Source: Tichowtungia aerotolerans (GTDB lineage: Bacteria; Verrucomicrobiota; Kiritimatiellia; Kiritimatiellales; Tichowtungiaceae). From it: a DNA stretch of 64,000 nucleotides. Below are positions 3,562-23,939 of the stretch, one piece after another (position 1 is the first letter of the stretch; each line of letters begins with the position of its first letter). The stretch lies in the NCBI RefSeq assembly GCF_009905215.1, contig NZ_CP047593.1, forward strand, positions 186,001 to 250,000, given 5' to 3'. Position numbers and translations under genes: made by a program. The notes under the pieces were generated by a model. It was not told the origin of the DNA. It made no database searches and saw nothing but the letters and a program-made list of their open reading frames with translations.

Positions 3562-3590
3562 GACCTACCTTTCGTTCTCAACACAAGATG

Positions 3591-3630
3591 CTGTTGCGCT
3601 ATAAATAGAAACTGTGTCGTTTTAAAACAC
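3591..3630 (-). promoter_or_regulatory. Promoter with candidate LacI-family operator boxes
   Basis: Read on the minus strand, TGTTTT and TATTTA are separated by 16 bp. The spacer ends in CGACACAGTTTC immediately before the -10, matching the layout upstream of the genes starting at 19055 and 12470. A second box, CTGTTGCGC on the plus strand at 3591-3599, lies just downstream of the -10. It would control the large hydrolase starting at 3561. Confidence 0.5.
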
Positions 3631-3712
3631 AACAGAACCCATGTAAAGAAATATTATTCTGGAAAGAAACAATGCAACTCATCAGCGGCAATCATCCGGC
3701 CGATCAAATTAC

Positions 3713-3782
3713 GCCCGGCGACTGCCGGGCATTTCAACAAGTGCAGCCCGAGAAACAGTTCCATCCCGAGCTGCAAGCTCGG
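3713..3782. other. Two small hairpins in a gene-poor gap (3562-3871)
   Basis: GCCCGGC-GACT-GCCGGGC at 3713-3730 and CCGAGCT-GCA-AGCTCGG at 3766-3782 are perfect inverted repeats downstream of the SGNH hydrolase gene. Neither is followed by a T-run, so they are at best weak or processing structures rather than clear intrinsic terminators. Apart from the promoter at 3591-3630 nothing else is seen in this gap. Confidence 0.4.
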
Positions 3783-3871
3783 AAAATGAAACAGACCACA
3801 AGAATATCGGAAGGATGAGCGCGCAACTCACTCGTGCAAAAACAGTAATTTATTCCATCACGGCAGTGATG

Positions 3872-4594
3872 CTAATTTTCATACTGAAGTTCTGCATCCA
3901 TCAGAACCGGCCGGAGAACATCCCGCCAGACTGCATAGCCCTCTCTCGTCATGTGCAGATCATCGGGCTTAAAAAACTCTTTTTGCGGCTCACCATCCTC
4001 ATCGAACATGACTGAGGCAACATCCACAAAAACCAGTCGCTGATCCTTATCGCACTCCTCGGCAAGAAGACGATTCACCTCTTCCATTGCAGCCCACATA
4101 TTCATCCGCTTAATACTCGGCTTTACAGACAAAACGTATATGCGGCATTCCGGAAAATGATTGTGCACCTTGTCAACGAACAGGCCAAAGGTATCAACAA
4201 TGCGTTCAACTCCAATGCCTTGGGCAACATCGTTGTCCCCCTCGTAAAGAACAATAGCGCGGGGCTCGCACGGCAAAACCATCCGGTCGGCAAACATCAG
4301 CGCATCGTTCATATTGCTTCCGCCGAAACCGCGCGGAATAATCGTCAACGGTGCCAGGTCTTCCTGGATATCATTCCACATGCGCATGCTTGAACTGCCG
4401 AAACAGACGATCGCGCCCGGACGCGGCGGATGTGCTTTATCCTGGGCCTCAAAACTCTTAACCTCTGGCTCCAACCAACGGGACACGCCATACCTCTTTC
4501 CTTCATCCGGCGTAGCATCCTGCGCAGAACAGACAAAACTGCCAGACAGCAAAGCCAGTGCCACATACCCCTTGAACACCACTGCAACCTTCAT
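3872..4594 (-). CDS. Secreted SGNH/GDSL-type hydrolase (putative carbohydrate esterase)
   Basis: Likely a periplasmic or secreted esterase removing acyl groups from a glycan. The start at 4594 was preferred over an upstream in-frame ATG because GGAGGA sits 8 nt before it. This start also gives a clean signal peptide (VALALLSGSFVCSAQ). The 240-aa product shows SGNH blocks: FGSSSMR (nucleophile Ser68 in the GxS position), RGFGGSNMND (Gly block), EGDND (Asn block) and DDLHMTREGY (Asp-x-x-His). It is the last gene of a run with the oxidoreductase, sulfatase and secreted hydrolase upstream, 42 bp after the oxidoreductase, which suggests a role in debranching or deacylating the same polysaccharide. 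The acyl group removed cannot be told. Confidence 0.85.
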   Translation of the reverse strand: MKVAVVFKGYVALALLSGSFVCSAQDATPDEGKRYGVSRWLEPEVKSFEAQDKAHPPRPGAIVCFGSSSMRMWNDIQEDLAPLTIIPRGFGGSNMNDALMFADRMVLPCEPRAIVLYEGDNDVAQGIGVERIVDTFGLFVDKVHNHFPECRIYVLSVKPSIKRMNMWAAMEEVNRLLAEECDKDQRLVFVDVASVMFDEDGEPQKEFFKPDDLHMTREGYAVWRDVLRPVLMDAELQYEN

Positions 4595-4636
4595 CACGAT
4601 CGTCCTCCACGCCACAGCACCCTTAAAACAGATTAA

Positions 4637-5803
4637 TCAGGGCTGAATATCGACCAAGTCCCACATCGGGCGCAGATCAACGACCTGACCGGAGTCCATG
4701 GCCTTGTCCACCCCGAAACAGGCGACTGCGGATTTGACCCCGTCTTCCAGGCCGACAACCGGAACGGTTCCGTTGAGCATAGAGTCGCGAATGCCGTCGG
4801 CCAGAATTCCGTCGGCGCCGCCGTGTCCGCCCGAAGCCGTTTTTTCATGCACCGTTCCCGGATCAAAGCCGATCCGGCGATATTCAATATGCCCGGCCAT
4901 CACATCCCCGCGAATGGTTCCTTTCGTGCCGCAGAGGTAGAACCGGCGCTCCGGAATCGCCGTGTTGAGATTGGTGTGGAAGGTGGCCCGCACGCCGTTG
5001 GCGTATTCCAGGATGACCACCTGGTTATCGATAATATTTTTTTCCGTGGTAAACGGGTTCAGGCGGTTGGCCCGGGTGTAGATCCCCATCTGCTGCCAGG
5101 TCTGATAAGCAGGCACACCATCTTCTGTCGGCTCAATCTCATTGATGAGTCCGGCATTTTCGGGCGTAAAGAAACTCAGCCCGCCGAAACTGGCCGTCCG
5201 AACCGGGAGGCTGCCGGTCAGCCAATTGGCCAAATCAAAGTCATGACTGCATTTTTCGAGCAGATGAGTCCCCGCGTTTTCACGGAAACGGCGCCAGTCC
5301 TGCATGATGTAGCCGCCGTGATTAAAATCCAGTGTCTCATTAAATTCGAAGGAGACGATCTCCCCGATGACACCGTCCTCAATCAGAGCTTTCACTCGGC
5401 GATAGAACTCCGCGTAGCGCAAAATAAAGCCCATGGAAAACAGGAGTTTCTTCTCCTCAATAGCTTTTTTCAGCAACGCGCAGTCTTCGATATTGATCGT
5501 GAGCGGCTTCTCGCTGAACACGTGCTTCTCCGCCTCGAGCGCGGCCAGGATGTGCTCTTTATGAAAACAGTTCCACGAGCCGACAGCCACCCAGTCGACG
5601 GACGGATCATTGATCAGATCCCGGTAGTCCTGGTGAACCACAGCATCCGGACACTCACACCGGCGGCGGGCCAGATCCAGCGCATCGTCACTGACATCGC
5701 ACAACGCCGTAACCCGGACTCCCTCGTGTCCCTGAACGACCCGTGCCATCACCTCAGTCAGACGGTTTCCACAGCCGATCAGGCCAATTCCCACAGTACT
5801 CAT
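4637..5803 (-). CDS. Gfo/Idh/MocA family NAD(P)-dependent oxidoreductase
   Basis: Cytoplasmic sugar dehydrogenase-type enzyme of 388 aa. The N-terminal Rossmann motif is GIGLIGCGNR, and the family's catalytic EKPL lies in HVFSEKPLTI, followed by the alpha/beta C-terminal domain (EFNETLDFNHGGYIMQDWRR). The ATG at 5803 has GGAGA 8 nt upstream. A GTG five codons earlier overlaps that Shine-Dalgarno, so it is less likely. It lies between a sulfatase and an SGNH esterase, and the context suggests oxidation or epimerisation of a monosaccharide released from the target glycan. The exact substrate is unknown because the family is broad. Confidence 0.9.
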   Translation of the reverse strand: MSTVGIGLIGCGNRLTEVMARVVQGHEGVRVTALCDVSDDALDLARRRCECPDAVVHQDYRDLINDPSVDWVAVGSWNCFHKEHILAALEAEKHVFSEKPLTINIEDCALLKKAIEEKKLLFSMGFILRYAEFYRRVKALIEDGVIGEIVSFEFNETLDFNHGGYIMQDWRRFRENAGTHLLEKCSHDFDLANWLTGSLPVRTASFGGLSFFTPENAGLINEIEPTEDGVPAYQTWQQMGIYTRANRLNPFTTEKNIIDNQVVILEYANGVRATFHTNLNTAIPERRFYLCGTKGTIRGDVMAGHIEYRRIGFDPGTVHEKTASGGHGGADGILADGIRDSMLNGTVPVVGLEDGVKSAVACFGVDKAMDSGQVVDLRPMWDLVDIQP

Positions 5804-5907
5804 ATCTCTTATCTCCACGATTAAAACGAAACCGTTTTCTCAAAAAAACCGGCAACCCAACGGGGTTGCATCAGATCTTATCTGCAGAAGAAACAGCAGC
5901 CAGCATG

Positions 5908-7362
5908 TCAGGACTCCCGCTCTTGCTTGTAATGGCCCCACAGCTCACCGGGGCCCGTCCCGATCTCTTTTCCCCAGCGGGTCAGCAGGCGGATATCCTC
6001 CAGCGAGTCGAGCGCTTTGCGCGTAATCTGTTCCGGATCCCACTCGGTCAATGCGGCCTCTTTCAGCGCGGATACGTCCGCTTCGCACGCCGGATCGTCC
6101 ACTCGATTGCGCTGCTCCAGCGGATCGGAACTCAGGTCATAAAAATGTTCTCCGGCATTGTGATAGTACGCGTATTTCTTCTGCCCTTTCAGGGCCATGC
6201 GCATCACCGGATAGCCGGGAAATTCCAGCTCGGAAAGAATCACCCGCTCCCGCCATTCCGGATCGACGGATCCGGCCAGAAGCGGCTGTATGCTCACGCC
6301 GTCCTGCAGCGGCAGCGCGGGCGCGCCGCCGAGCTCCAGCAGCGTCGGGCAAAGGTCCAGCAGGCTGACCGGCACATCCTGCACCTGCCCTTTGGGAATC
6401 GAGTCGCCGGAAAGCGAGCTCCAGATCATGGGGACGGCAACGGAGCCCTCCCAAAACGCCAGCTTTCCAAAACAGCCGTAATCGCCCATCAGGTCCCCGT
6501 GGTCGCTGGCATAGACAATAATTGTTTCGCCGTCGAGCTGACGGGCCGCCTCGACAACCTGCCCGACCATCCGGTCGAGCGTCATGATCATACCGGCGTA
6601 GCTGACACGGGCCTTTAAGGCGGATGCGGCATCTTTATCCAGCCCGCCGCTGCGCTCAAAAAACTGCTGTTCCCACGCGTGCGGAGTTGTTTCCGGCGGG
6701 GGAATCATTTCCGGCAGCCGGTCTGCCAGGTCCAGGGCCTTCTGGTACATCTCCGGCTCACAGGCATAGGGGCTGTGCGGACCGTACCAGCCGACGGTGA
6801 GCATCAGCGGCGCCTCCCTGTCGGAAGCGGCATACTGCTGCAGACAGTCCACGGCGGCATCGGTTACCGCCCGGTCGAACTCCAGCACCGGGTTCGTGCC
6901 TTCGCCCATCTTTTCGGGATTCAGGCTTTCCTGAACGGAACGCTGCGCACCCTCGACCCAGCCCCACTCCACGTTCGGGCCGCCGCCGTACTCCGGGGTA
7001 ATGTCCCCAACCAGCCGCTCATTGAACCCATGCCGCTGGTCGGGGCCCGAGAAGTGCATGCGTCCGGCAAGCACACTGTGGTAGCCTGCCAAACCCAGCC
7101 CGTGCGCAAAGGTCGGAACATCGGACGAGAGCGTGTTTTCATTCACCCAGATCTCATTGCGCCACGGGTGGCGCCCGGAGAGCAAGCTCATCCGGGACGG
7201 CCCGCACAACGGACTGTTGCAGTAACAACGCTCCATGCGGACGCCGGATGCGGCCAGAGAATCCAGATTCGGAGTCTCCAGCCAGCCGGCCCCCGCACAG
7301 CCCATCCAGTCAGCCCGGTGCTGATCGGACAGGATGAATATAAGATTGGGTTGCTTCGCCAT
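5908..7362 (-). CDS. Formylglycine-dependent sulfatase (S1-type)
   Basis: Hydrolyses sulfate esters. The 484-aa protein begins with the arylsulfatase hallmark NLIFILSDQHRADWMG (metal-binding Asp13). It carries CGPSR in NSPLCGPSRMSLLSG, where Cys53 is the residue expected to become formylglycine through the anaerobic or FGE maturation route. VYASDHGD supplies the second metal-binding motif. The start at 7362 has AAGGGAATT before it; upstream in-frame codons have no ribosome site and run into the preceding gene. No signal peptide is seen, so it may act on imported oligosaccharides in the cytoplasm, unlike most secreted sulfatases. It lies 22 bp after the discoidin-like gene in the same direction. 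No maturase gene is visible in the window. Confidence 0.93.
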   Translation of the reverse strand: MAKQPNLIFILSDQHRADWMGCAGAGWLETPNLDSLAASGVRMERCYCNSPLCGPSRMSLLSGRHPWRNEIWVNENTLSSDVPTFAHGLGLAGYHSVLAGRMHFSGPDQRHGFNERLVGDITPEYGGGPNVEWGWVEGAQRSVQESLNPEKMGEGTNPVLEFDRAVTDAAVDCLQQYAASDREAPLMLTVGWYGPHSPYACEPEMYQKALDLADRLPEMIPPPETTPHAWEQQFFERSGGLDKDAASALKARVSYAGMIMTLDRMVGQVVEAARQLDGETIIVYASDHGDLMGDYGCFGKLAFWEGSVAVPMIWSSLSGDSIPKGQVQDVPVSLLDLCPTLLELGGAPALPLQDGVSIQPLLAGSVDPEWRERVILSELEFPGYPVMRMALKGQKKYAYYHNAGEHFYDLSSDPLEQRNRVDDPACEADVSALKEAALTEWDPEQITRKALDSLEDIRLLTRWGKEIGTGPGELWGHYKQERES

Positions 7363-7384
7363 AATTCCCTTTACGCCTCGGTGT

Positions 7385-7933
7385 TTAGTCGCGCTCGCTT
7401 TTCGGCGCGTAGACTTCAATTTCGGAGATGGAGAACATTTTGCTGGAGGGATTCTTGTCCTGCTCCATCGAGATTTCAAGATAGCGGCCGGCGGCACCTG
7501 TCAGCGGCACATCAATAATCGTGCTGCGTTTACCGCTGGGTTTCACCTCCAGCACACCCACTTCGCCCATCGACGCCGGATCATTTCCGGACAGCACACG
7601 GACACGGTCCATCACGTGACCGGGATTCCCGGAAAACATCCAGACAATCCGCACGCTGGTCGGATGAACCTCTTGCTTGAAGTCATAGCGCAGGCGCATG
7701 GCCTTGGTCATATTCGGGCCCCACACGGACGGAACCGAGTTTTTGTCATCACGCTTACCGTCGGAAAATCTGGAACAGTCCGCATCGCGCTCCCAGACCA
7801 TCGGGTCACCGATCCGATCCAGATAGATGTATGAGGCGGACGAATTCCGGGCAATATTCACACCGTCCTGAGCCTGAGTTGCTCCGGCAAACAGACCCGC
7901 TACAAGGGCTACGCTCAACACATATTTTTTCAT
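7385..7933 (-). CDS. Secreted F5/8 type C (discoidin-like) domain protein
   Basis: A 182-aa exported protein with signal peptide MKKYVLSVALVAGLFAGATQAQ. A single beta-sandwich resembling galactose-binding/discoidin modules follows: NIARNSSASY..., then VRIVWMFSGNPGHVMDRVRVLSG and a terminal GRYLEISMEQ...ISEIEVYA. Such modules usually bind carbohydrate. It has no visible catalytic domain, so a free-standing glycan-binding role is inferred. AAGGAGAAGGAA precedes the ATG. It starts 15 bp after the stop of the large hydrolase and is probably co-transcribed with it. A longer relative is encoded at 11526-12470. Confidence 0.8.
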   Translation of the reverse strand: MKKYVLSVALVAGLFAGATQAQDGVNIARNSSASYIYLDRIGDPMVWERDADCSRFSDGKRDDKNSVPSVWGPNMTKAMRLRYDFKQEVHPTSVRIVWMFSGNPGHVMDRVRVLSGNDPASMGEVGVLEVKPSGKRSTIIDVPLTGAAGRYLEISMEQDKNPSSKMFSISEIEVYAPKSERD

Positions 7934-7948
7934 TTCCTTCTCCTTCGT

Positions 7949-10456
7949 TTATTTACTTTTGCTGCACACCACACGCACCGCACGTGTCGCCCCGTCATTT
8001 CCTGTTACCAGAATCGTTGCATACTGCATTCCCCCAGGAAACTTCGCTTCAAGAATATCGACCTCAATTTTCCGGATCTTATCCGAGGTGATCTGCACCG
8101 GATCAACCGGAAGACTCAGCCACGGAACGTCGGTTTTAAACGACAGGCTCATCTCCCCAACCCCGGCATTAGCCGCCGACAGCTCAAAAGACGCGCCCGG
8201 GTTCCCGTCCGACAGCTCGACAGCGGTCAACTGCGGCAAAACCACGGGATGAGCGGCTTTGTGCACCCGGTAGTAAACCGGCTCGTGCGATGACGACAGG
8301 ACCACCGGAGTCTCCGCATCCAGAACCGTTAAAGATTCATCGCCCATCATGCCGTTCACCAGGGCAACCTGCCTCCCTTCAAAGGGCGACTGGAAGGACC
8401 CGATCCCTGCCTGCTCAGTCACCCAGGCCGCCAGCACTTTCTCCTGCGGACGATCAAAAAAATACACACGTTTCGAAGAAGGATAATCCGAAATCCGCTC
8501 AATCAGCCGCGCATCGCAAAATACGGACGCAGTTTTGGCGAATGATCCAATCACCGGCAGCAACCGGGTCTGACGCAGCTTCAAATCGCGCGGCGGAATA
8601 AACAGATTGTGCCCGTTTTTGATGTCATCCGGCGCAAAAATGCAATGAGCCTGAATGTTGAGCTCATCCCTGAGCGCCTGAACAATCACATTCTGACGGG
8701 CCGTCCACGCAGCCTGACGCACCGGAGATGTTGAGGGTGTATACCAGCCGTACTCCGTCAGGAACAGCGGCTGATCCTCAGCACCGTTATCATCCATGGC
8801 CTGGCGAAACTCACGCAGTCTGGGAACCAGATCCGGCTCAGCCGGGAAGCGATGTTCCCAGTTATCCTCGCGAGTCACCTTGCAGTAAGGGTGCCCACTC
8901 ATGGCATCCTGATAATCGCGAGTGGATGACGGGTTGCTCAACCACGTCTCAACCCAGTCCGCCGGCAAGCCCGCGAATGTTCCGCCAATCAGTTTGGCAT
9001 CCGGATTACCTTTCTTGATTCCCTTATACTGAGCCCGCTGAACGTTCTTTGCAACCAGACTGCGCTTCTCCTTATTAAACGGCGGCGGCATCCAAAAAGT
9101 GTTTGGATTATTCGGCTCATTCCAGGCCTGGAACCATGTGATAACCCCTTTCGCTGTCCGGGCCAACTCTTCGTTGTAATCACTCCAGTCATCCAGATAG
9201 CTGTCTTTCGGAGGGGCCGAAGCGCGGCTGTCGTTGGCCCACTTCGGACAGCTGCCGACATTGCAGATCAGCTCAAACCCATTGTCATTCAACAAACGGA
9301 ACCGATCCATATACTCCGGATCCACCTCTCCGCCGCGCTCGCTTTGCGTCCAGGCCCAAAGTCTGCTGAATACCGACCAGCGCACCCCCATCCGGTGCAT
9401 CAAATCAAGATCCGCAGCATCCGGAGTCCCCATATCCCCGTGGCGCCCCCGGCGGTTGGCAGCCCCGTGAGTCCCGAATACCGACTTGGCCACCGCCTCC
9501 TGATCCTGCGGAGCCAGCACGGCAAATTCAAAGCCGTCCGTCATGCTTCCTCCGGAGCAGGACAGAGCGTAGAAGCCGGCTTCGAGGCCGGTCAGATCGA
9601 GCCCAAACGGCTGCCCGCCGTCGACGACCCCGTTCAGCGAGGCCGAGGTGTGCAGGTTGGTGACCGACCAGCGGACCGTCTCTCCGGAGAGTCCGGCGGG
9701 AGACACCGTGATGTCCAGCTGCTCTCCATGAGTCCAGACCGGCTCGGCAGGATCATAACTGAACGCCATGCCCTGCGAGAGCGCAAACCGGGGCGACATG
9801 CGAATGGATTCGATCACCGGAGCGGAATCCGACAGGCCCGCATCACCGGACGTGGATGACAGCACCACAAAAACCTTACTGCCTTTCTCAGGGAGCGGAA
9901 GCTCCGCCGAAAACGTGCCGTCCTCGCCAAAGACGGGAGACACCTTCTTGAAATATTTTTCGTTGTACTTGGTGGGGCCGTCCCAAAAACCGTTTGCCCC
10001 GGCCATAATCAAGTCGGCACCGACTGCGACATAAAAGTCCCCGATGCCGCCGGCCCGCCCCTGAGCGCGTCCGGTTACGGTCATCGTTCCGCCGGTCAGG
10101 CTGTTTTTACCGGGAACCTCAAACTTAAATGCCACATGAGAATCGCCCTGAAGACACAACCCATCGTTCAGGGGATACGCGAACGAATAATGGTGGCTGT
10201 TTTTCGCTCCCCAGATCGCATAGGACTGATAGAGAGTCATCTCGGGAGTCAATCGGAATTCCAGATCCGCCCCAGAGTAAGACAGAGGAATCGCAGCATA
10301 GGGCGTATTGTGAGCCAGATCCGGAGCCCCCAGAGACCGAGGCAACGGCGTAACCCCTTCAAGCAGAACCGGCTTAAGAACTGAAGCCGACACCTCTCCG
10401 GAAAAAAACAATGAGACCGCACTTAAAAGAAAAAATCCACGAGCTAACCTACTCAT
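7949..10456 (-). CDS. Secreted glycoside hydrolase-like protein (clan GH-A fold), 835 aa
   Basis: Second paralogue of the large hydrolase family. The signal peptide is RGFFLLSAVSLFFSGEVSAS. It has a beta-sandwich N-terminal half, then a TIM-barrel-like region with ITWFQAWNEPNN (acid/base candidate E447) and PLFLTEYGWY (nucleophile candidate E568). The spacing of 121 residues equals that in the paralogues. A C-terminal beta domain follows; there is no Fn3 or thrombospondin tail. It heads the run hydrolase - discoidin-like - sulfatase - oxidoreductase - esterase, with gaps of 15, 22, 104 and 42 bp, a probable operon. Two operator-like boxes lie 19-47 bp upstream of the start. Function as an endo- or exo-glycosidase is inferred from the motif pair. 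Confidence 0.88.
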   Translation of the reverse strand: MSRLARGFFLLSAVSLFFSGEVSASVLKPVLLEGVTPLPRSLGAPDLAHNTPYAAIPLSYSGADLEFRLTPEMTLYQSYAIWGAKNSHHYSFAYPLNDGLCLQGDSHVAFKFEVPGKNSLTGGTMTVTGRAQGRAGGIGDFYVAVGADLIMAGANGFWDGPTKYNEKYFKKVSPVFGEDGTFSAELPLPEKGSKVFVVLSSTSGDAGLSDSAPVIESIRMSPRFALSQGMAFSYDPAEPVWTHGEQLDITVSPAGLSGETVRWSVTNLHTSASLNGVVDGGQPFGLDLTGLEAGFYALSCSGGSMTDGFEFAVLAPQDQEAVAKSVFGTHGAANRRGRHGDMGTPDAADLDLMHRMGVRWSVFSRLWAWTQSERGGEVDPEYMDRFRLLNDNGFELICNVGSCPKWANDSRASAPPKDSYLDDWSDYNEELARTAKGVITWFQAWNEPNNPNTFWMPPPFNKEKRSLVAKNVQRAQYKGIKKGNPDAKLIGGTFAGLPADWVETWLSNPSSTRDYQDAMSGHPYCKVTREDNWEHRFPAEPDLVPRLREFRQAMDDNGAEDQPLFLTEYGWYTPSTSPVRQAAWTARQNVIVQALRDELNIQAHCIFAPDDIKNGHNLFIPPRDLKLRQTRLLPVIGSFAKTASVFCDARLIERISDYPSSKRVYFFDRPQEKVLAAWVTEQAGIGSFQSPFEGRQVALVNGMMGDESLTVLDAETPVVLSSSHEPVYYRVHKAAHPVVLPQLTAVELSDGNPGASFELSAANAGVGEMSLSFKTDVPWLSLPVDPVQITSDKIRKIEVDILEAKFPGGMQYATILVTGNDGATRAVRVVCSKSK

Positions 10457-10474
10457 TCAAACGCCCTTTCAGAA

Positions 10475-10503
10475 ACAGTTGCTTTACTTTGCGATACTGT
10501 TGC
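10475..10503 (-). promoter_or_regulatory. Two candidate LacI-family operator boxes upstream of the sulfatase operon
   Basis: The plus strand shows ACAGTTGCTT at 10475-10484 and ACTGTTGCTT at 10496-10505, 21 bp apart and so on the same helical face. The same 8-bp core (GCAACWGT) recurs in other promoters of the locus. A convincing -35/-10 pair could not be assigned here. Confidence 0.45.
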
Positions 10504-10567
10504 TTTTACGAGAGATAACTTCAAGCAGAAAACGTCATTTTAACGCTTCTTACCCGTCCCTCCCTCT

Positions 10568-10602
10568 CAAAAAAAAGCTGCCCAGGAACCCCTGAGCAGC
10601 TT
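10568..10602 (-). terminator. Intrinsic terminator after the PEP-CTERM gene
   Basis: On the minus strand, AAGCTGCTCAGG-GGTT-CCTGGGCAGCTT forms a 12-bp stem with one G-T pair and runs into eight T residues. It sits 20 bp past the stop of the gene at 10623. Confidence 0.85.
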
Positions 10603-10622
10603 CTCAGCAAACAATAACAAGA

Positions 10623-11393
10623 TTATGGTTTACGCCGAAACCGGCGTGTAAAAAAGGCCACAAGCCCCCCGATTCCCAGCAATCCAGCCGTGACCGGCTC
10701 CGGAACAACATAAGTTTCGTCCCGGACTTCCAGATTATCAAGATACAGCGACTCAACATTCGGATTAATCGTGGAGAATTTAAAGCCGGTCAGGGCGACA
10801 TCCCGCCCTGTGGCCGCAGCGATCTGTCCGGCAATGATACGGGATCCGTCCACCCAGATATCCATGTGGTTATGATCCAGACTGACCCCTTTATAATTCA
10901 CAACAGAGCCGGTATTGTTCATGACGATATCAACATGATAATCGCCATCGAGCCCAACACTCTGCCCTTCAATTTTTCCGGCCGAAAACTCAATGTCGTG
11001 AGCAAGATCGGAACTAGAAAGAAAGGCACCTCTCCCAATTCCCAGTGAAACATCACCCGCCTGACCGGAAACGGTCGGCTGGTAATAATCAAAACTAAGC
11101 GTCAGCAAGGTTGAAGAAAACAGCTCTGCCGACCGGATCCAAAGACCGGAACTGGCGTCATTGTCAATTATCGCCAGATACTGGTTGGACTCCCCGAAAA
11201 ATGTATCATTCGACACATTGAGAGTCGTCGTTCCGGCATTGTTGTTCCCCGTCCATATCGAACCCGACGGCTCCGCCCCAACCGTATCGCTATCGCTGTC
11301 GAAGTTGTCAGACAGAATAATTGAGGCCTGAACGGAACTGCTCAAAACAACGGCAGCAGTCCAGATCAAACACCTATACTTTATTTTGATCAT
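10623..11393 (-). CDS. PEP-CTERM sorting-domain protein, LamG-like
   Basis: Exported 256-aa protein. It has an N-terminal signal peptide (LIWTAAVVLSSSVQAS) and a beta-sandwich body with a concanavalin/LamG-like feel (FDSDSD, LTLSFDYYQP, LDNLEVRD). At the C-terminus is a textbook PEP-CTERM signal: VPEPVTAGLLGIGGL, a hydrophobic helix and the basic tail RRFRRKP. Family knowledge says this tail is cut by an exosortase, with delivery to the surface or exopolysaccharide. No exosortase gene is in the window. AAGGAAATAACA precedes the ATG, and a strong terminator follows. Its own transcription signal is unclear; a hairpin separates it from the gene upstream. Placement in the glycan locus suggests a surface polysaccharide-binding role. 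Confidence 0.85.
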   Translation of the reverse strand: MIKIKYRCLIWTAAVVLSSSVQASIILSDNFDSDSDTVGAEPSGSIWTGNNNAGTTTLNVSNDTFFGESNQYLAIIDNDASSGLWIRSAELFSSTLLTLSFDYYQPTVSGQAGDVSLGIGRGAFLSSSDLAHDIEFSAGKIEGQSVGLDGDYHVDIVMNNTGSVVNYKGVSLDHNHMDIWVDGSRIIAGQIAAATGRDVALTGFKFSTINPNVESLYLDNLEVRDETYVVPEPVTAGLLGIGGLVAFFTRRFRRKP

Positions 11394-11482
11394 TGTTATT
11401 TCCTTTCTTTTTATAAGACAGCAGGCAGTCCCGCCATCGATTTAAATCAGCCCTTTGCAGCAATAAACTCGAAAATTTTCGA

Positions 11483-11515
11483 ACCATTCACACGAACAAA
11501 GTTCATGTGAATGGT
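11483..11515 (-). terminator. Long hairpin between the discoidin-like and PEP-CTERM genes
   Basis: ACCATTCACACGAAC and GTTCATGTGAATGGT form a 15-bp stem with one wobble pair and an AAA loop, starting 11 bp past the upstream gene's stop. Beyond it on the minus strand is the short palindrome TCGAAAATTTTCGA instead of a plain T-run. Termination or mRNA 3'-end protection is the likely role. Confidence 0.6.
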
Positions 11516-11525
11516 ATTATCCCTG

Positions 11526-12470
11526 CTATTCCACCATTAAAGTAACAAACCTCGATTTCTCATCCGTAATAGGAATTCGGTTAGTAACCATCTCAAAATC
11601 ACCAGAAGCTTCTGAAACACCGAGAACCGAATAAGCTGATGTATCGTTCGTAAAAGCTGCACTCACCAAATCAGTAGAGATTCCTAAAGAATAAGAAAGT
11701 CCCCGCGGAAGCCAATCAACACGCCGACGATAGCAATACTCCGCCTCACCACCGCTAATCTGCAACGTAGGCCTGATTGCAGCGGCATCGTTTTCACTCG
11801 GGTTTCCACCGAGGGCAAACTCAATCAGATTCTTCAATCCATCATTGTCAGGGTCGTCATCCTTCTCCCGCCCATCCACAGGCAGATAACCGGCATAATC
11901 ATCAATCCAATCACTAAACTGCTTCCGGGCATACACCTCAAACTCACAGATGGATACCATTGTCGATGTATCAGGGTTGCTATCTGTTTCGAACCACACC
12001 TTAAGATAACGGCCAGCAGCACCCTCCAACGGCACGTCAATGATGGTACTGGAGGCTCCGGATTTTACCGGTTCAATATAACCCACCTGAACCAGGCTCG
12101 ACACATCATCCCCGGCAAACAAAGTAACGCGATCTAGCACATGACCGGAAAGGTTGGAAAACATCCAGACAATTCGCGCCAATTCAGGATAAGCAGTCTC
12201 CTGAAAATCAAACAGCAGGTACCGCCCTCTATACGGACCAGCTTTCCACGTCCACGGAATAATCTTAACTGCATTTCCGTCCGACCGAACTCCGTCAGTC
12301 AATTTAACGCAAGTCGGATCATCATCATGAGTCATAAGCACCCCATCCTGATCGAGATAGGTGTAGGAGCTCAAACCATTCCGCGCAATGTTGATCAGAT
12401 CACTCTGCGCAGACACACTCCCGGCAAAAACATTTACCAACAAGACCACAGCCCAAACGTAACTTTTCAT
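11526..12470 (-). CDS. Secreted F5/8 type C-like protein with calcium-binding-type linker
   Basis: A 314-aa exported protein. The start at 12470 has AAAGGAGAATGAG directly upstream and a signal peptide (YVWAVVLLVNVFAGSVSAQ). Residues roughly 25-190 repeat the discoidin-like module of the 182-aa protein at 7385-7933 (NIARNGLSSYTYLDQDGV, ARIVWMFSNLSGHVLDRVTLF). A stretch DDDPDNDGLKNLIEFALGGNP follows, resembling thrombospondin type 3/dockerin-like calcium loops, then a small beta domain. The TSP3-like piece resembles that at the end of the hydrolase at 15525-19055. It probably binds glycan at or outside the cell surface; no catalytic motif is recognised. Confidence 0.78.
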   Translation of the reverse strand: MKSYVWAVVLLVNVFAGSVSAQSDLINIARNGLSSYTYLDQDGVLMTHDDDPTCVKLTDGVRSDGNAVKIIPWTWKAGPYRGRYLLFDFQETAYPELARIVWMFSNLSGHVLDRVTLFAGDDVSSLVQVGYIEPVKSGASSTIIDVPLEGAAGRYLKVWFETDSNPDTSTMVSICEFEVYARKQFSDWIDDYAGYLPVDGREKDDDPDNDGLKNLIEFALGGNPSENDAAAIRPTLQISGGEAEYCYRRRVDWLPRGLSYSLGISTDLVSAAFTNDTSAYSVLGVSEASGDFEMVTNRIPITDEKSRFVTLMVE

Positions 12471-12585
12471 CTCATTCTCCTTTTGTTTATTGACCGCACA
12501 CCGCATGCGGTGCGCATAACCTCCTTACCTCCTGCAACCAAAAAGATCCCCCAACAAGCCCGGAAAAATTCGATATCTGTTTCTT

Positions 12586-12613
12586 AATATAACGCAACTG
12601 TGTCTCAAATCAA
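12586..12613 (-). promoter_or_regulatory. Promoter with operator box in the spacer
   Basis: On the minus strand TTGATT and TATATT are 16 bp apart, and the spacer TGAGACACAGTTGCGT carries the recurring ACAGTTGC box just before the -10. The layout matches the promoter of the hydrolase gene starting at 19055. It would drive the secreted protein starting at 12470. Confidence 0.6.
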
Positions 12614-12956
12614 TGCTTTTGTTCTCCTTTTTAGCAAAAAAGTACGGCACATAAAAAAAGCGCACACGAAAACAGCAACCCCGCCGCCACAGAGCAAGAA
12701 CACAAAGAGACTGCCCCAACAAAACGACAAAAAAATACCGTGTCCACATAAGAACACGGCATTAAAAAACCTACAGAACAGAAACCAGAGCCACAATACT
12801 CCTCTAAAGAGGCGGGCAGGCTCTATAAAAAACCACTCAAAAAATCTCCCAGTCACATACGTAGATAAAACAAAGACCGTACACCGCAAGCCTGTCCTAA
12901 AACGACTGCGACGCAAACACATTCAATCCAAGCAGCAGAATCAAGATAAAACAAAA
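12614..12956. other. Intergenic stretch without a supported gene
   Basis: This gap downstream of the regulator gene is strongly A- and C-rich on the plus strand, giving T/G-rich hydrophobic but implausible translations on the other strand. A minor hairpin CCTC-TAAA-GAGG is present near 12803. I see no terminator with a T-run and no convincing coding signal. Confidence 0.4.
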
Positions 12957-13991
12957 CTACCCGCCATTTAAGGCCGCGGGACCGCAACTGCTGCGCCAAA
13001 TGACTTTTGTGGAAACTTCAATCTGCACCGGTTCATTGAACTGTTCCCCTTCGATCTGACGTCGAAGCAGAGCCGCTGCCTTCTCCAATGAAAGGCTCAA
13101 ATTCAAATCAACACTGGTAAGCGGCGGGTCGGACTCGATCGCTAAGTTTGAATTATCGTGACTCACCACGCTCATATCAGCCGGAACATCAATGCCGCCG
13201 CGCCCAAGCGCAATCAATCCCCCAACAGCCAATTGATCCGTCCCAAAGAAAACGGTTGTCGGACGATTAGAGCAAGCCAGAATCTGCCGAACAGCAGTCT
13301 GCCCCGCATGAATCGTTGAATGAGGAACTTTAATCAGCATACGGGGATCAAACGGCAACCCCAACTCTTCCACCGCAGCGAGAAATCCATCCACACGTCG
13401 CTGCACCGTCGGATACTTGGTAGGCGGAGTAATATACGCAAAATGCTGATGCCCCACCTCGGCCAGCTTTTTCACCGCATCACCGGTGGATGTTCCCACA
13501 TCAGGAATAACACAGGGAAAGCCGGTTCGAGAAGCGAGCCCGTCCAGAACCACAATCGGTATTCCGGTCTGCCTCAACGCCTTGCAGGTCTCCTCGTGCG
13601 GATACCCAACCACAATTAAACCATCCACCCGGCTTTCCACAACGAGCTGAGGCAGCGGAGCATCCGGAGAGCGCAGCATCAACTCCGTGTGCACATGCCA
13701 GTCAAAACCGGAAATCACCCGAATGGCTTCAAAAACCAGATTATAATGATAAGCATCATCCGGAGAGGTCGCCTGATCCGTCATAACGAGAATCCCAACC
13801 GCATCGGTCCGGTTTCTCCGAAAAGGCCGCGGGCGATAGCCCATATCTTCGGCAAATGACTGAATCTCCTTCGCCCGAGCAGGACTGACTCCGCCCCGCC
13901 CCGCCAAGGCACGGGAAACCGTGCTCGGGGAAAGCCCCATTTCACGAGCGATCTCGCGCAGCGTAACCTCTTTATTATCAATATTATCCAT
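12957..13991 (-). CDS. LacI-family transcriptional regulator
   Basis: A 344-aa repressor-type regulator. The N-terminal helix-turn-helix VTLREIAREMGLSPSTVSRA and the hinge-helix region (VSPARAKEIQSFAEDMGYRP) are canonical. A periplasmic-binding-protein-like sensor domain follows (VGILVMTDQ, DGLIVVGYP, TTVFFGTDQLAVGG, VVSHDN). AGGGGGCATGCA precedes the ATG. It lies in the middle of the glycan locus, 94 bp downstream of the GH4 gene, and has two copies of the recurring GCAACA/TGTTGC box in its own upstream region, which fits autoregulation. The inducer is probably an oligosaccharide or monosaccharide from the target glycan, by inference. It is the only DNA-binding regulator seen in the first 26 kb. 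Confidence 0.95.
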   Translation of the reverse strand: MDNIDNKEVTLREIAREMGLSPSTVSRALAGRGGVSPARAKEIQSFAEDMGYRPRPFRRNRTDAVGILVMTDQATSPDDAYHYNLVFEAIRVISGFDWHVHTELMLRSPDAPLPQLVVESRVDGLIVVGYPHEETCKALRQTGIPIVVLDGLASRTGFPCVIPDVGTSTGDAVKKLAEVGHQHFAYITPPTKYPTVQRRVDGFLAAVEELGLPFDPRMLIKVPHSTIHAGQTAVRQILACSNRPTTVFFGTDQLAVGGLIALGRGGIDVPADMSVVSHDNSNLAIESDPPLTSVDLNLSLSLEKAAALLRRQIEGEQFNEPVQIEVSTKVIWRSSCGPAALNGG

Positions 13992-14021
13992 TGCATGCCC
14001 CCTAAAAACAAAAAGAGGGTT

Positions 14022-14059
14022 TCACGCAACACTACCAGCCGTCAAGACAATGTTGCGTC
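14022..14059 (-). promoter_or_regulatory. Candidate operator pair upstream of the LacI-type gene
   Basis: TTCACGCAACACT near 14022-14034 and AATGTTGCGTC at 14049-14059 are oppositely oriented copies of a CGCAACA half-box, about 25 bp apart centre to centre, 30-70 bp before the start codon. TTGAC occurs twice nearby on the minus strand as possible -35 elements. Confidence 0.45.
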
Positions 14060-14085
14060 AAAGCTACGCAAAAAACCGCCCTTCC

Positions 14086-15417
14086 TTATTTGTAAACAGG
14101 GAGCCAATCAGCGTGCGCAGCAAACAACGCATCACACATTTCCCGAATCTGATCGAGGTCGAGCTCCGCACGCGTATGCGGATCCATCATAGCCGCATGG
14201 TAAACCGCTTCGCGACTTCGCGTCGCCGCAGCCTCCACCGCCAATTGATGCACATTGATATGAGTCTGGTTCAATGCCGCCAGCTGGGAAGGAATCCTTC
14301 CGACATACACTCCCTGCACGCCATTCCGGTTGACGATGCAAGGCACCTCAACACAGGCATCTGCGGGCAGATTGGAAATCAGGCCGTTGTTCATCACATT
14401 GCCGCCGATCTCAAAAGGACTATCGGTCACAACCGCATTCATCATGCCCGCGGCATACTCGCGCGAACGACTGTGCTCAAGTTCCGGAGCTTTCAGCAGA
14501 CGCTCCCGCGTCTCCTTCCATTCCTGAATCTGCTTCTCGCACCGACGTGGATACTCATCCAGCGGAATCTTAAACCGGTCAATCAGCTCCGGACGAGACT
14601 CCTTAATAAAGTAAGGATGATACTCTGCCGAATGTTCGGAAGACTCCGTAGTATAGAACCCGAACTGCTTCATCATCTCAAACCGAACCAGATCACCATG
14701 ATCCTTCCCTTTGGCGATAAATTCCACATTGCGAGCCTCTGCGCGCCTGCGGATCTCGGGGTACAGATCCTTGCCGGAGTGCGAAATATCCAGCAGCCAG
14801 GCCATATGATTGATCCCCGCGATGCTCCACTTGGCCCCCTTGATATACTCCGTCATCTTCAGGTGCTCGAGAAGCTCCGGCACACAAACCTGAACAGAGT
14901 GGCACAACCCGACCGTTTTGACGCCCGTATGCTTCAGCATATACCCCGTCAAAATGGACATGGGATTCGTGTAGTTGAAGAACCACGCATCGGGACAAAC
15001 CTCCTCCATATCCCGGGCAAAATCGTCCAGCACCGGAATCGTACGAAGCGCCCGGAAGATCCCCCCAATGCCGATGGTATCCCCAATCGTCTGCCTCAAC
15101 CCAAACCGGTTTGGAATTTCAAAATCCGTAACCGTGCACGGCCGGTACCCCCCCACCTGAATCGCATCAATAACAAAAATTGCTCCGCGCAGCGCATCTT
15201 TTCGCTGCTCCTCTCCGAAATACGCCGAGACAGTCGCGCGCCCTTCATTGATACTCTGATTCAAAGAGTCGACTATCTGCCTGGAATCCTCCAGCCGCTG
15301 CTGATCGATATCATACAGCGCCACTTCCACATCGCGCAACGACTCCGTCAGGAACACATCGCCCATAATATTTTTTACGAAAATCGTGCTGCCGGCACCC
15401 ATAAATGTAATCTTCAT
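14086..15417 (-). CDS. Glycoside hydrolase family 4 (alpha-galactosidase/galacturonidase-like)
   Basis: Cytoplasmic NAD- and Mn-dependent glycosidase of 443 aa. The N-terminal Rossmann segment is KITFMGAGST. The GH4 signature appears as FNYTNPMSILTGYM and GLCHSVQ, with the conserved Cys-His that bind the metal, and AGINHMAWL follows. These features are closest to MelA/alpha-galacturonidase-type members, but the sugar cannot be settled from sequence alone. GAGGATAGAGCG precedes the ATG. The gene is preceded by the best operator palindrome of the locus and followed by the LacI-type gene. It would hydrolyse imported oligosaccharides by the oxidation-elimination mechanism typical of GH4. Confidence 0.93.
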   Translation of the reverse strand: MKITFMGAGSTIFVKNIMGDVFLTESLRDVEVALYDIDQQRLEDSRQIVDSLNQSINEGRATVSAYFGEEQRKDALRGAIFVIDAIQVGGYRPCTVTDFEIPNRFGLRQTIGDTIGIGGIFRALRTIPVLDDFARDMEEVCPDAWFFNYTNPMSILTGYMLKHTGVKTVGLCHSVQVCVPELLEHLKMTEYIKGAKWSIAGINHMAWLLDISHSGKDLYPEIRRRAEARNVEFIAKGKDHGDLVRFEMMKQFGFYTTESSEHSAEYHPYFIKESRPELIDRFKIPLDEYPRRCEKQIQEWKETRERLLKAPELEHSRSREYAAGMMNAVVTDSPFEIGGNVMNNGLISNLPADACVEVPCIVNRNGVQGVYVGRIPSQLAALNQTHINVHQLAVEAAATRSREAVYHAAMMDPHTRAELDLDQIREMCDALFAAHADWLPVYK

Positions 15418-15484
15418 CGCTCTATCCTCACCCTTCTGCTAAAAATTCAAAATCACAAAAAAGAACACATGCACACTAAACAGA

Positions 15485-15523
15485 ACTGTTGCGTAAAACA
15501 ACGCATTTTGTCTCTAATATCAA
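15485..15523 (-). promoter_or_regulatory. Promoter/operator of the GH4 gene
   Basis: On the minus strand TTGATA is followed after 17 bp by TGTTTT. The spacer TTAGAGACAAAATGCGT resembles that upstream of 12470. The plus strand shows ACTGTTGCGT at 15485-15494, and the inverted repeat TGCGT-N6-ACGCA at 15490-15505 covers the -10. This is the clearest palindromic form of the recurring box. Confidence 0.6.
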
Positions 15524-15524
15524 A

Positions 15525-18500
15525 TCAATCGTTTACTTCGAGCTGAAAATACCCGGAAACCCGATCAACTCTCACGGTATCGGACCGGTCGCTTGCCCCA
15601 TAAATTCCCGACAGAACGGGAGTCCAGCCACCGCTCAAATCCGGAGCAAACATCAGATTGTAGCGACGACGCGCCACTCCCTGCCACCGAAGCACCAGCT
15701 CACCCGCCCTGCCCGGAACGAACAGGCCGGTAATAGCCAGCCGGGACTGGGGATCCCGCGGATCGGTTCCGCAACGATACTCATCATAATCGGACGCTCC
15801 GTCCCCATCAGAGTCGCCCGTCCCGTCAACCGCGGAAACCCAGCCGAAGTGCTGCAGCTCCCACTCGTCCGCAATCGCATCGCCGTCCACATCCGGATCC
15901 ACAACGACCACATCAAAAGAACGAAAAGCACTCCACTCCCCAATATTACCAGCCTCGTCGATAGCACGAACCTGCCAACGGTGTTCCCCCGCATCGAGCG
16001 TTTTCGAAAATTCAGTCGCAGAACCGGCATCATAAACCATCGAATCGATCCGAATATGATACCCGGAAACGCCGCTTTCATCGGCAGAAGCGGTCCATTC
16101 AAAGCCGACCGAACTCCCCAGCCCGGCCTGCCCATCAACAGGGGCCTGCAGAATCGGCGCCGCCGGAGCCGTCCGATCCGCAGAAAAGTAAAAATTAACT
16201 TCCCGATCCGCACTCAGGATTCGCCGAGAGGTCGTAACAGTTCCTCCCTGGAAGGTCACCGAAACATAATAAAACAGATCGTCCTTCGCCATAAAACTGT
16301 ACGCCCCGTTCGCATCGCAAATCTCCTGACCCACGAACCCTACCGAGTTCGAATAGCTGACCGTAAGCCCCGGCTCCGGCTCTCCATTCACATGAACCAC
16401 CCCCTGGAACAGATAGGTGTCAGGCGTCCCTCCCATATCCTTAATTTTCAGAGTGAACTCATCCGTATCAACAACCGGCCCCTCTGAACTGTCTCCCGAC
16501 AGCGTCAGAACAAAATCCACCTCATGCCCCAGCGGCGCGGAGCCGTCCACATCGACCAGAAGCAGCCCATTGGTCAGACTCTCATCAAGAGCCATCGACC
16601 CCATCGCGAGCTCAGGCTCAACAAGGGTAACGTACGGATCCGAACTGCTGAGCACGGCGGTAATATTGCTGCAGCCGAACAAATCCAGATTTTCCAGACG
16701 AAGCTCCAGCCCGATCCGCTCTCCGGGCTCCACATCGCCATACCCGTCACCGGAGGTCCCGTCGCGGCCGTCATCCACCACGACAACCTGCGAGTCCACC
16801 AGCCAGGGTGCAGCCTTGCTGACCACCCAGTAAACCGGCTCATGATTCGCCGGAAGCGACACCGATCCCGACGGCGCAACAATCCGTTTTTCGGTTCCCA
16901 TCATACTGACCTGCAACATTGGCGTGCCCGCCGCGACCGGCAACTCCACACTGAACGGAAACTGCGCATCCTCAGTCGCCCAGGCAGTATAAACCAAATC
17001 GCCCGCCCGGTTTTTAAACGAATAGAGCCGAACCGGATTAGGATAATCGCGCAGGCGCGCAACCGGCTGTGCACCTGCCAAAAGACTGGATGCCGTGGCA
17101 AACGAACCCACTACCTTCGTGCAGCGCGTCTGCTGCGCGCCGACATCCTGAGCTCGGCGCAGGACGTTGTAATCAAGCTTCAGATCGAAAAAGCTGAATA
17201 AATTTACACACTTAACATTCAGATCCCGACGAAAGCTCATCATAATAATCAGCTCGCGGGCGGTCCAACGGGCGTATTCCTCTTCGGTCACCAGCTTGCG
17301 AGTCCAACCAAACTCAGTCCAGAAAGTCGGCAGACTCTGCTGTCCATAAGAGTCCAGCACCCTTTTAACCGCATTAAGCCGGGGAACCAGATCCGGTTCC
17401 GGCGGAGTCTGGTGACCGGTGCCGTTTGGCGTTGTTTGCCACACCGGATAGGGATGCGTGCTCATTGCGTCCTGACGGCCAATCATACTGTCCGGAGCTT
17501 CCAGCAAATCATCAAACCAGCTGTCATAGATCCCGGCCAGACAGCCCCCGATAAATTTTGCATCAGGATTACCAAGTTTAACCGCCTCGTTTTGCAGCCG
17601 ACCGAGCATTTTCGCTGCCGCGACAGCCCCGGTACGTGTGTAATAGGGAAAGAGGTTTATCTGGTTGCTGTTGTTGGGCTCATTCCATGCCTGATACCAC
17701 GTGACCAGATTTGTGAGTGTGGATGCCACCGTCTGGTGATACGCCTGATACTCATCATAGTAATCCGGAACCGGAGGATAACGGTTCCCCGCGTTGTTAT
17801 TGGCCCATTTCGGGCAGCCGTCGGCGGTCATGATGATTTCGATGCCGCCGGCCTTGAGGGTTTCAAGCATCGAAATATAATAAAAATCAATCGGGCCGTT
17901 TTCGACCGGCTGACGCCAGGGCCATTGCGCGTTAGTAAGAACCGTCCAGCGGATTCCCATTTTCCGCATCAGGTCAATATCTTCCGCAACCGGCTCCGCG
18001 CGCTGCCCTTCTGTTCCCATATAAGCCGGGAACCCGAATGCACCAAAAATTGTATCATCAACACCGAGCTCGGGATTCTGCCCTCGCAGGATAATGACAT
18101 CCTGATAGTCCAGCAGTGTCAGCGGGTCTGCATGATCCGCAACCTCCAGTCGATAAAACCCCGCATACTGCGACGACAGATCAATCGTTGCAACTCCGCC
18201 AACAACAGGCTCAGCACCGTCCGCATGAACGGAACCGTCAAACTGATCGACGAGAAGCCACTCGACGGCAGAAACAGTTCCGCTGACTGCGGTTACATCA
18301 ATCATCAAATCGTCCGTCGTCGACCAAACCGGCTCTGTTTTATCCACCTCGATCGTCAGCCCGGCGGCCTGCGTAAACTGCGCATTGATCCGCAACTCTT
18401 CAAGAAGAGCCCGCTTGTACAGGTACGGAGGAATCCCCCGCTCAACCGCTACATAGAAAGCCGAAACACCCGAGGGAATATTGACGCTTAACGTCTGAGA

Positions 18501-19055
18501 ATCAGCACCCGCCTCAGAAAACCAACTGCGGGAAAAGTCGATACTGTTGTACCCATTAAAAGCAGAATAATTACCCGCAAAACCCAGCTCCAGCGAATCA
18601 GAAACCCCTATTGAAAAAACGCTTCCGCAATCTTCTTTGTCCGCCCCACCGCTCAGAAGCGTCAGATCCGCCTCCACCGTACCGCCCGCAAAGGTGTTAC
18701 CGGGCGGGGCGGAGAATTTCCAAATCAACGCGACGTCGTTAGCATTGTACGTCCCCCCGAGCATGACACTGTTGGTCACCCACTCTGCATAAGCATAAAA
18801 TCCGTCAGTATGAGAATCTCCGGCTGCGGTATAAAGTCGTCTCTGGCCGTCATCCTGCGAAAAATCCTCGACCCAAGCCGGCGACGAAAGTTCCAGACCA
18901 TTATCATGGAAACGAACATTGCGATACAAATCGGCAGCCCCAGACCTGCAACCAATGCGGTAATATGTTTCAGCATTCCCGGCAAACGCAAAAAACAGAA
19001 CACCGCCCAAAAGGGAACATATCCCGCCAGCACCCTGCTTTGACTCTCGACACAT
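15525..19055 (-). CDS. Secreted multidomain glycoside hydrolase-like protein (clan GH-A fold), 1176 aa
   Basis: Complete paralogue of the protein at the left window edge. The start at 19055 has GGAGG 10 nt upstream; a GTG six codons earlier overlaps that site. Order of parts: signal peptide (GICSLLGGVLFFAFAGNAE); N-terminal beta region; TIM-barrel-like domain with YQAWNEPNN (E459) and TFWTEFGW (E581); a beta domain; DDGRDGTSGDGYGDVEPGE and CARDB-like segments; an Fn3-like Ig module (PILQAPVDGQ...WQVRAID). The C-terminus has DPDVDGDAIADEWELQ and GDSDGDGASDYDEY thrombospondin-3-like calcium repeats and a terminal beta domain. It has its own operator-bearing promoter. The product would act outside the cell on the main polysaccharide; the substrate is not determinable by eye. 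Confidence 0.9.
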   Translation of the reverse strand: MCRESKQGAGGICSLLGGVLFFAFAGNAETYYRIGCRSGAADLYRNVRFHDNGLELSSPAWVEDFSQDDGQRRLYTAAGDSHTDGFYAYAEWVTNSVMLGGTYNANDVALIWKFSAPPGNTFAGGTVEADLTLLSGGADKEDCGSVFSIGVSDSLELGFAGNYSAFNGYNSIDFSRSWFSEAGADSQTLSVNIPSGVSAFYVAVERGIPPYLYKRALLEELRINAQFTQAAGLTIEVDKTEPVWSTTDDLMIDVTAVSGTVSAVEWLLVDQFDGSVHADGAEPVVGGVATIDLSSQYAGFYRLEVADHADPLTLLDYQDVIILRGQNPELGVDDTIFGAFGFPAYMGTEGQRAEPVAEDIDLMRKMGIRWTVLTNAQWPWRQPVENGPIDFYYISMLETLKAGGIEIIMTADGCPKWANNNAGNRYPPVPDYYDEYQAYHQTVASTLTNLVTWYQAWNEPNNSNQINLFPYYTRTGAVAAAKMLGRLQNEAVKLGNPDAKFIGGCLAGIYDSWFDDLLEAPDSMIGRQDAMSTHPYPVWQTTPNGTGHQTPPEPDLVPRLNAVKRVLDSYGQQSLPTFWTEFGWTRKLVTEEEYARWTARELIIMMSFRRDLNVKCVNLFSFFDLKLDYNVLRRAQDVGAQQTRCTKVVGSFATASSLLAGAQPVARLRDYPNPVRLYSFKNRAGDLVYTAWATEDAQFPFSVELPVAAGTPMLQVSMMGTEKRIVAPSGSVSLPANHEPVYWVVSKAAPWLVDSQVVVVDDGRDGTSGDGYGDVEPGERIGLELRLENLDLFGCSNITAVLSSSDPYVTLVEPELAMGSMALDESLTNGLLLVDVDGSAPLGHEVDFVLTLSGDSSEGPVVDTDEFTLKIKDMGGTPDTYLFQGVVHVNGEPEPGLTVSYSNSVGFVGQEICDANGAYSFMAKDDLFYYVSVTFQGGTVTTSRRILSADREVNFYFSADRTAPAAPILQAPVDGQAGLGSSVGFEWTASADESGVSGYHIRIDSMVYDAGSATEFSKTLDAGEHRWQVRAIDEAGNIGEWSAFRSFDVVVVDPDVDGDAIADEWELQHFGWVSAVDGTGDSDGDGASDYDEYRCGTDPRDPQSRLAITGLFVPGRAGELVLRWQGVARRRYNLMFAPDLSGGWTPVLSGIYGASDRSDTVRVDRVSGYFQLEVND

Positions 19056-19147
19056 ACCCACAAACACCTCCACCCAATATAGACATAGATTTTCCGCAGG
19101 CTAACCCGTCAGACCCCGGCCCGACCGATCAACAAACTTGTTCCGTA

Positions 19148-19175
19148 AATATAGCAACTGTTTCGTTAAAAACAA
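19148..19175 (-). promoter_or_regulatory. Promoter with operator box, large hydrolase gene
   Basis: The minus-strand TTGTTT and TATATT are 16 bp apart. The spacer TTAACGAAACAGTTGC ends in the recurring ACAGTTGC box directly against the -10. It lies 93 bp upstream of the start at 19055 and supports shared control with the other glycan genes. Confidence 0.6.
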
Positions 19176-19279
19176 ACATATATTGCTAAAAAGCCAAACA
19201 AGTCCCTCTCAAAAAGAACATTCGTCTTGAATATTCGCTTGCATAAACCCTCGCAAATAGTGTTTATTGACCCTCAAAA

Positions 19280-19310
19280 GCAACAGTTTCCCAAACTAAG
19301 CAACAATAAC
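19280..19310 (+). promoter_or_regulatory. Operator-like boxes upstream of the ABC importer operon
   Basis: GCAACAGTTTC at 19280-19290 and a partial copy GCAACAAT at 19300-19307 lie between a TTGACC at 19267-19272 and the TTG start at 19327. The core is the same as in the minus-strand promoters, so the transporter is probably controlled with the hydrolases. No good -10 hexamer could be fixed. Confidence 0.4.
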
Positions 19311-23080: not shown

Positions 23081-23088
23081 GATCCCGA

Positions 23089-23913: not shown

Positions 23914-23939
23914 CTTTCATCTACAACCGAGGTCTCACC

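Follow-up and report, generated by a model that had tools for sequence, protein, structure and literature searches.

The stretch of DNA analysed here, called the window below, comprises 64,000 nucleotides of Tichowtungia aerotolerans and corresponds to bases 186001–250000 of the single 3.88-Mb contig which we have scanned as the genome. Its left part contains the following genes (positions are those of the window unless they are called genome positions):

1–3561, minus strand: GH39-like paralog 1, 33% identical to the protein of 7949–10456; ATG at 3561, leaves the window on the left, stop near genome position 185026
3872–4615, minus strand: GDSL-type esterase (PF13472, 1e-15), a downstream gene of the GH39-like paralog 2 unit
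4637–5818, minus strand: Gfo/Idh/MocA oxidoreductase (PF01408, 1.5e-21)
5908–7497, minus strand: sulfatase (PF00884, 1.4e-36)
7949–10456, minus strand: secreted GH39-like paralog 2, at the head of its unit; sole PDB match 5jvk_A (E = 0.004)
10623–11393, minus strand: secreted protein with a PEP-CTERM-like end, judged from the translation
11526–12506, minus strand: secreted protein, family unassigned, judged from the sequence
12957–13991, minus strand: LacI-family regulator without hinge helix (PF00356/PF13377; 4-residue linker deletion; AlphaFold model)
14086–15417, minus strand: GH4 enzyme, alpha-galactosidase subfamily (NCBIfam PRK15076, 6.3e-186, above cut-off)
15525–19073, minus strand: GH39-like paralog 3, secreted, 34% identical to paralog 2
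19327–25064, plus strand: importer unit with a TPR protein, a solute-binding protein, two permeases and a MalK-like ATPase

The GH39-like paralogs have no good match to a Pfam family; the weak PDB match, 5jvk_A, is to what we take to be a GH39 enzyme.

A short palindromic box is found in front of at least eight units in this locus. Seven of them lie in the window: the three GH paralogs, the 11526–12506 unit, the LacI regulator, GH4 and the ABC importer. The eighth is found to the left of the window, where a pair of boxes at genome positions 178750 and 178771 precedes an operon with a sulfatase, a GH65/beta-phosphoglucomutase fusion and a GH3 enzyme; a large protein and two secretins are encoded in the opposite direction. 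The regulon thus extends past the left edge of the window, and the locus spans about 171.5–211 kb of the genome. The first-pass annotation had placed boxes upstream of six units; the boxes are real, and the larger number of units includes paralog 1, with its start at 3561, and the pair left of the window. The PEP-CTERM-like gene (10623–11393) has no box of its own that we could find, and it may be read through from 11526–12506. The fusion protein (genome 180383–183307) joins in one chain a beta-phosphoglucomutase and a GH65 phosphorylase-like enzyme; it may couple phosphorolysis to sugar-phosphate isomerisation.

The same annotation had taken the LacI-type gene as the only regulator nearby. 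This is correct for the locus itself; beyond it there is a TetR gene beside an efflux operon on the left and a LysR gene beside the ketol-acid reductoisomerase gene on the right. Just to the right of the locus, among uncharacterised genes, a TIR-domain protein is encoded on the minus strand (26508–27455), possibly a defence gene.

The box had been described as an 8-mer, GCAACWGT. It occurs exactly nine times in the window; shuffled sequences have a mean of 3.15 (sd 1.68), and one shuffle in 100 reached nine. Six of the exact copies are sites of the annotation (10475, 10496, 12594, 15485, 19154 and 19280) and three are found away from them, at 7213, within the sulfatase gene, and at 41783 and 41873. 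Boxes are present at all the sites annotated, though those given as 3591, 3611, 14026 and 14050 are imperfect copies, at 3587 (GATGCTGTTGC), 3608 (GAAACTGTGTC), 14026 (GCAACACTACC) and 14046 (GACAATGTTGC). When the boxes are aligned, the full motif is an odd palindrome of 11 bp, GMAACWGTTKC, which is understated by the 8-mer. A typical box has one perfect half (GTTGC), the other half being GANAC. The copies at 41783 and 41873 are two exact GCAACTGT sequences 90 bp apart, within a predicted coding region and outside this motif family. The boxes of the window are the following:

3587–3597, plus strand: box A1, GATGCTGTTGC, 9/11 match, upstream of GH39-like paralog 1, 21 bp from A2; weak by leave-one-out
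3608–3618, minus strand: box A2, GACACAGTTTC in minus-strand reading, in a 16-bp spacer adjoining TATTTA
10472–10482, plus strand: box B1, GAAACAGTTGC, 21 bp from B2; motif scan and leave-one-out
10493–10503, plus strand: box B2, GATACTGTTGC; motif scan and leave-one-out
12594–12604, minus strand: box C, GACACAGTTGC in minus-strand reading, within the promoter TTGATT-16-TATATT at 12613–12586
14026–14036, minus strand: weak box D1 at the regulator's own gene, 8/11 match
14046–14056, plus strand: weak box D2 at the regulator's own gene, 9/11 match, 20 bp from D1; leave-one-out rank 16–31
15482–15492, plus strand: box E, AGAACTGTTGC, upstream of the GH4 gene; first in 84 kb by the matrix of relatives, weak by leave-one-out
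19154–19164, minus strand: box F, GAAACAGTTGC in minus-strand reading, in the 16-bp spacer from TTGTTT to TATATT
19280–19290, plus strand: box G, GCAACAGTTTC, before the importer unit; motif scan and leave-one-out
19300–19310, plus strand: weak second G box, GCAACAATAAC, 8/11 match

The centres of the boxes are found 21–93 bp upstream of the start codon; A1 and A2 directly precede the start of paralog 1. The boxes sit either on the -35/-10 elements or between these and the start codon, and not upstream of the promoter, a geometry which suits a repressor. In three promoters, all on the minus strand, a box occupies the 16-bp spacer and adjoins the -10 (TATATT, TATATT and TATTTA), just as it had been annotated. 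Among these three, only 12613–12586 passes a scan for the sigma-70 consensus, a scan whose total count is not above chance. At three promoters the boxes form pairs exactly 21 bp apart (3587/3608, 10472/10493 and genome 178750/178771), and at two further promoters a second box, weak in both cases, is placed at 20 bp.

The exact palindrome GMAACWGTTKC is found 19 times in the genome, compared with 10 for a reversed control. Four copies (genome 178771, 196472, 205154 and 205280) belong to the locus; all of them are intergenic and lie in promoters. The other exact copies examined are found inside predicted ORFs. Two of these ORFs, at 986226 and 1746234, are short and may not be real genes; the copy at genome 249545 lies within a gene. 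The enrichment is a property of this narrower palindrome: the wider pattern GCAANNNTTGC shows no enrichment in the genome (72 against 95 in the control). A matrix scan, which the first-pass annotation had suggested for the genome, divides the boxes in two groups. We built each matrix with all the boxes of one unit left out, which guards against circularity, and ranked the positions of 168 kb. Seven boxes were each found within the top 4–8 positions: the two of GH39-like paralog 2, those of the 11526–12506 gene, of paralog 3 and of the importer, and the better boxes of paralog 1 and of the sulfatase. The box of GH4 (rank 51–101), the box at 3587 (26–56) and the LacI gene's own box (16–31) do not stand out in these 168 kb. 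The regulator gene does carry boxes itself, as had been stated, but they are weak, with 8–9 matches of 11. With a sequence model made from all the boxes, the nine best matches in the genome are all in the glycan locus and no second cluster was seen among the 150 of 1238 candidates which were scored; this test is circular, as the model was trained on the boxes of the locus themselves.

The protein of 12957–13991 has the two parts of a LacI-family regulator, both above cut-off: the helix-turn-helix (PF00356, 1.8e-8) and, after it, the sugar-binding core, a domain of the periplasmic-binding-protein type (PF13377, 1.2e-28). Its PDB matches are CcpA, PurR, RbsR and LacI, and its recognition helix is SPSTVSRAL. 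The linker, YRPRPFRRNRT, lacks four residues of the canonical one (YRPR----PFRRN) and has no AxxL. An AlphaFold model of the protein, made with 33 sequences, has no helix at residues 50–63; a hinged control with the same recognition helix, modelled with the same sequences, has one at 50–57. In the code described for the family, G at NT-6 is associated with an arginine at the TVSR position, and the central CG with the leucine of the hinge (PMC2978694). The AxxL hinge helix which inserts into a central CG is absent from the present protein, and the centre of its boxes is CWG. Published exceptions such as CytR, which is cited as a rare departure from the rule of the hinge and central CG (PMC2978694), mean that the hinge is usual and not universal, so that its loss does not exclude membership of the family.

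Of the systems described, CytR of E. coli is the closest. It binds TGCAA-N2-3-TTGCA (PMC3454398); as in our locus, it has GCAA half-sites with a short centre and no central CG, and a flexible unstructured linker takes the place of the hinge helix (PMC3454398, PMC2978694). The two proteins are 28% identical. CytR differs in being an anti-activator which works with CRP on nucleoside genes and tolerates widely varying spacing of its half-sites, whereas the boxes of the locus have a fixed centre of 3 bp, are placed on promoters and serve a glycan locus. It is unlikely that the local protein binds the boxes as an activator, or as an anti-activator of the CytR kind with a CRP-type partner: its closest NCBIfam profile is indeed that of CytR (1.4e-34, below cut-off), with a similar linker, GYLPQPMGRN, and a similar half-site, but the boxes lie on the -10/-35 elements or between promoter and start codon and not upstream of the promoter. 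By the curated cut-off of the CytR equivalog (PRK11041) it is not a CytR, with 119.6 bits against 436. With repressors of the PurR, CcpA and RbsR type the protein has in common the fold, the helix-turn-helix and the sugar-binding core, and homologs with its helix read a GCAA half-site; those repressors differ in keeping the hinge helix and in binding mostly even palindromes with a central CG. Such palindromes were found for 1173 of 1303 LacI regulators surveyed, odd ones for only 4% (PMC4052901). As in other local LacI sugar regulons, the gene of the regulator is among the targets and boxes are found both at the targets and, in weak form, at its own gene (72% of LacI regulators are autoregulated; PMC4052901). 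The locus differs from them by its unusually many separately boxed units and by its paired boxes 21 bp apart. Our literature search found no paper on hinge-less LacI proteins of this phylum, nor on LacI-type control in this bacterial group.

The box can be linked to the regulator through its relatives. Close ones are rare: at E 1e-38, 9 of the 387 genomes searched in the phylum contain one, its own included, and a search of contigs with the window protein as sole query found none. Upstream of the hinge-less relatives in other genomes of the phylum, GCAA-N3-TTGC is present in 8 of 19 loci and the N4 form in none. Examples are GCAACTGTTGC, GCAACTATTGC, GCAACAGTTGC, GCAAATATTGC and GCAAGTGTTGC; the consensus before their own genes is YGCAA-N3-TTGCR, and about 0.09 would be expected at the rate of the pattern in this genome. 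A matrix made from the relatives alone, which never saw the locus, puts the GH4 box first and box F second in 84 kb and, among the remaining upstream regions of the window, gives high scores to few. This ranking is the strongest evidence we have that the local protein reads the boxes. An alternative in which the boxes are no operators, but an element common to several promoters or a chance likeness among A+T-rich ones, is very improbable. Such an explanation would account for the box abutting the -10 in three promoters and for an 8-mer which by itself is only moderately above chance; yet the boxes are palindromic on both sides, occur in both orientations and in 21-bp pairs, and fit a motif derived from genomes other than this one. 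As a test of co-evolution, the 387 genomes were also searched for orthologs of the GH genes; a close one is present in one other genome only, in a stretch without a convincing box.

We consider it quite probable that the boxes are operators of the 12957–13991 protein, which would repress the entire locus in which it is encoded and be released by a sugar. The annotation had predicted one repressor for hydrolases, GH4 and importer, and a single local one appears as the best reading of the sequences: no comparable cluster was seen elsewhere among the candidates scored, the boxes at the clade's own genes match, and LacI proteins with the same helix share the GCAA half-site. A dimer would recognise a pair of GCAA-type half-sites separated by 3 bp (GMAA-CWG-TTKC). 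With four linker residues and the hinge helix gone, nothing would wedge into a central CG, so that the operator may be odd, with a centre shortened by one base and free of CG. The bound protein, on the -35/-10 region or on the stretch before the start codon, would block RNA polymerase. The pairs at 21 bp, two helical turns, would place two dimers on one face of the DNA, where they might cooperate. Release would be due to an imported mono- or oligosaccharide which the degradation of the glycan yields. The subfamily of the GH4 enzyme suggests that it may be an alpha-galactoside. In this bacterial group the locus offers a testable regulon for glycan degradation, with its regulator, operators and target enzymes.

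At least 19 LacI-type genes are present in the genome, at least 18 of them besides the local one. Another of their products might bind the boxes, either by itself or along with the local protein. The main candidate is the paralog at genome 1190343, which has the PSTVSRAL helix in common with the local protein and an altered hinge. Near its start (genome 1190000–1191700) there are two boxes of the GCAAC-N2-GTTGC type, GCAACTTGTTGC and GCAACAAGATGC. We consider such a binding improbable, though slightly less so than activation by the local protein: the paralog's own boxes (GCAACTTGTTGC) have a 4-bp centre and those of the locus a 3-bp one, it lies about 1 Mb away, and nearly 90% of the LacI regulators studied are local (PMC4052901). 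Its boxes probably form a separate regulon.

The putative local repressor and its relatives may also illustrate how hinge and operator are connected. For comparison, contigs were searched with a 4-row alignment, whose matches are mostly hinged LacI proteins. This gave a control set of 76 LacI genes with the PSTVSRALA helix; the majority are hinged and come from other phyla. GCAA-N4-TTGC is found upstream of 13 of them, mostly as GCAAACGTTTGC with an ACGT centre; a single one, from Mangrovicoccus, has the N3 form, and its linker is likewise abnormal. The difference in N3 and N4 between the groups is significant, with a Fisher p of 3e-5, counted on loci with a site, with groups which differ in phylum and related loci taken separately; it weakens to 0.003 once the paralogs of this genome are added. 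Two Agromyces and one Leucobacter gene with the same helix have GCAACAAGTTGC or GCAACAGGTTGC upstream, with a 4-bp centre but no central CG.

A clean rule, by which a protein without hinge would always have a 3-bp centre, is weakened by two paralogs. One has a normal hinge (genome 1067791–1067928) and GCAA-N3-TTGC upstream, which means either that something besides the hinge contributes to the spacing or that the site is fortuitous; the other is 1190343, with its altered hinge and 4-bp centre. The same pattern is less convincing upstream of the LacI genes with normal hinge at 1028729 and 1604947. Most other LacI proteins sampled in the phylum read other half-sites, and cannot settle the rule. 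Our proposal is accordingly tentative, and we give it somewhat less than an even chance: in a clade of Verrucomicrobiota the loss of four linker residues and of the hinge helix would have led to the usual GCAA half-sites being read across 3 bp without a central CG and no longer across 4 bp centred on ACGT, so that one deletion would account for a shift of one base in the operator. The hinge-less clade and its hinged relatives with the same helix provide a natural experiment on the hinge helix and the length and sequence of the operator, for which CytR has been the main exception described. A degenerate or missing hinge motif is found in many LacI-type proteins of the phylum, in this genome and in four others, far beyond the clade studied here.
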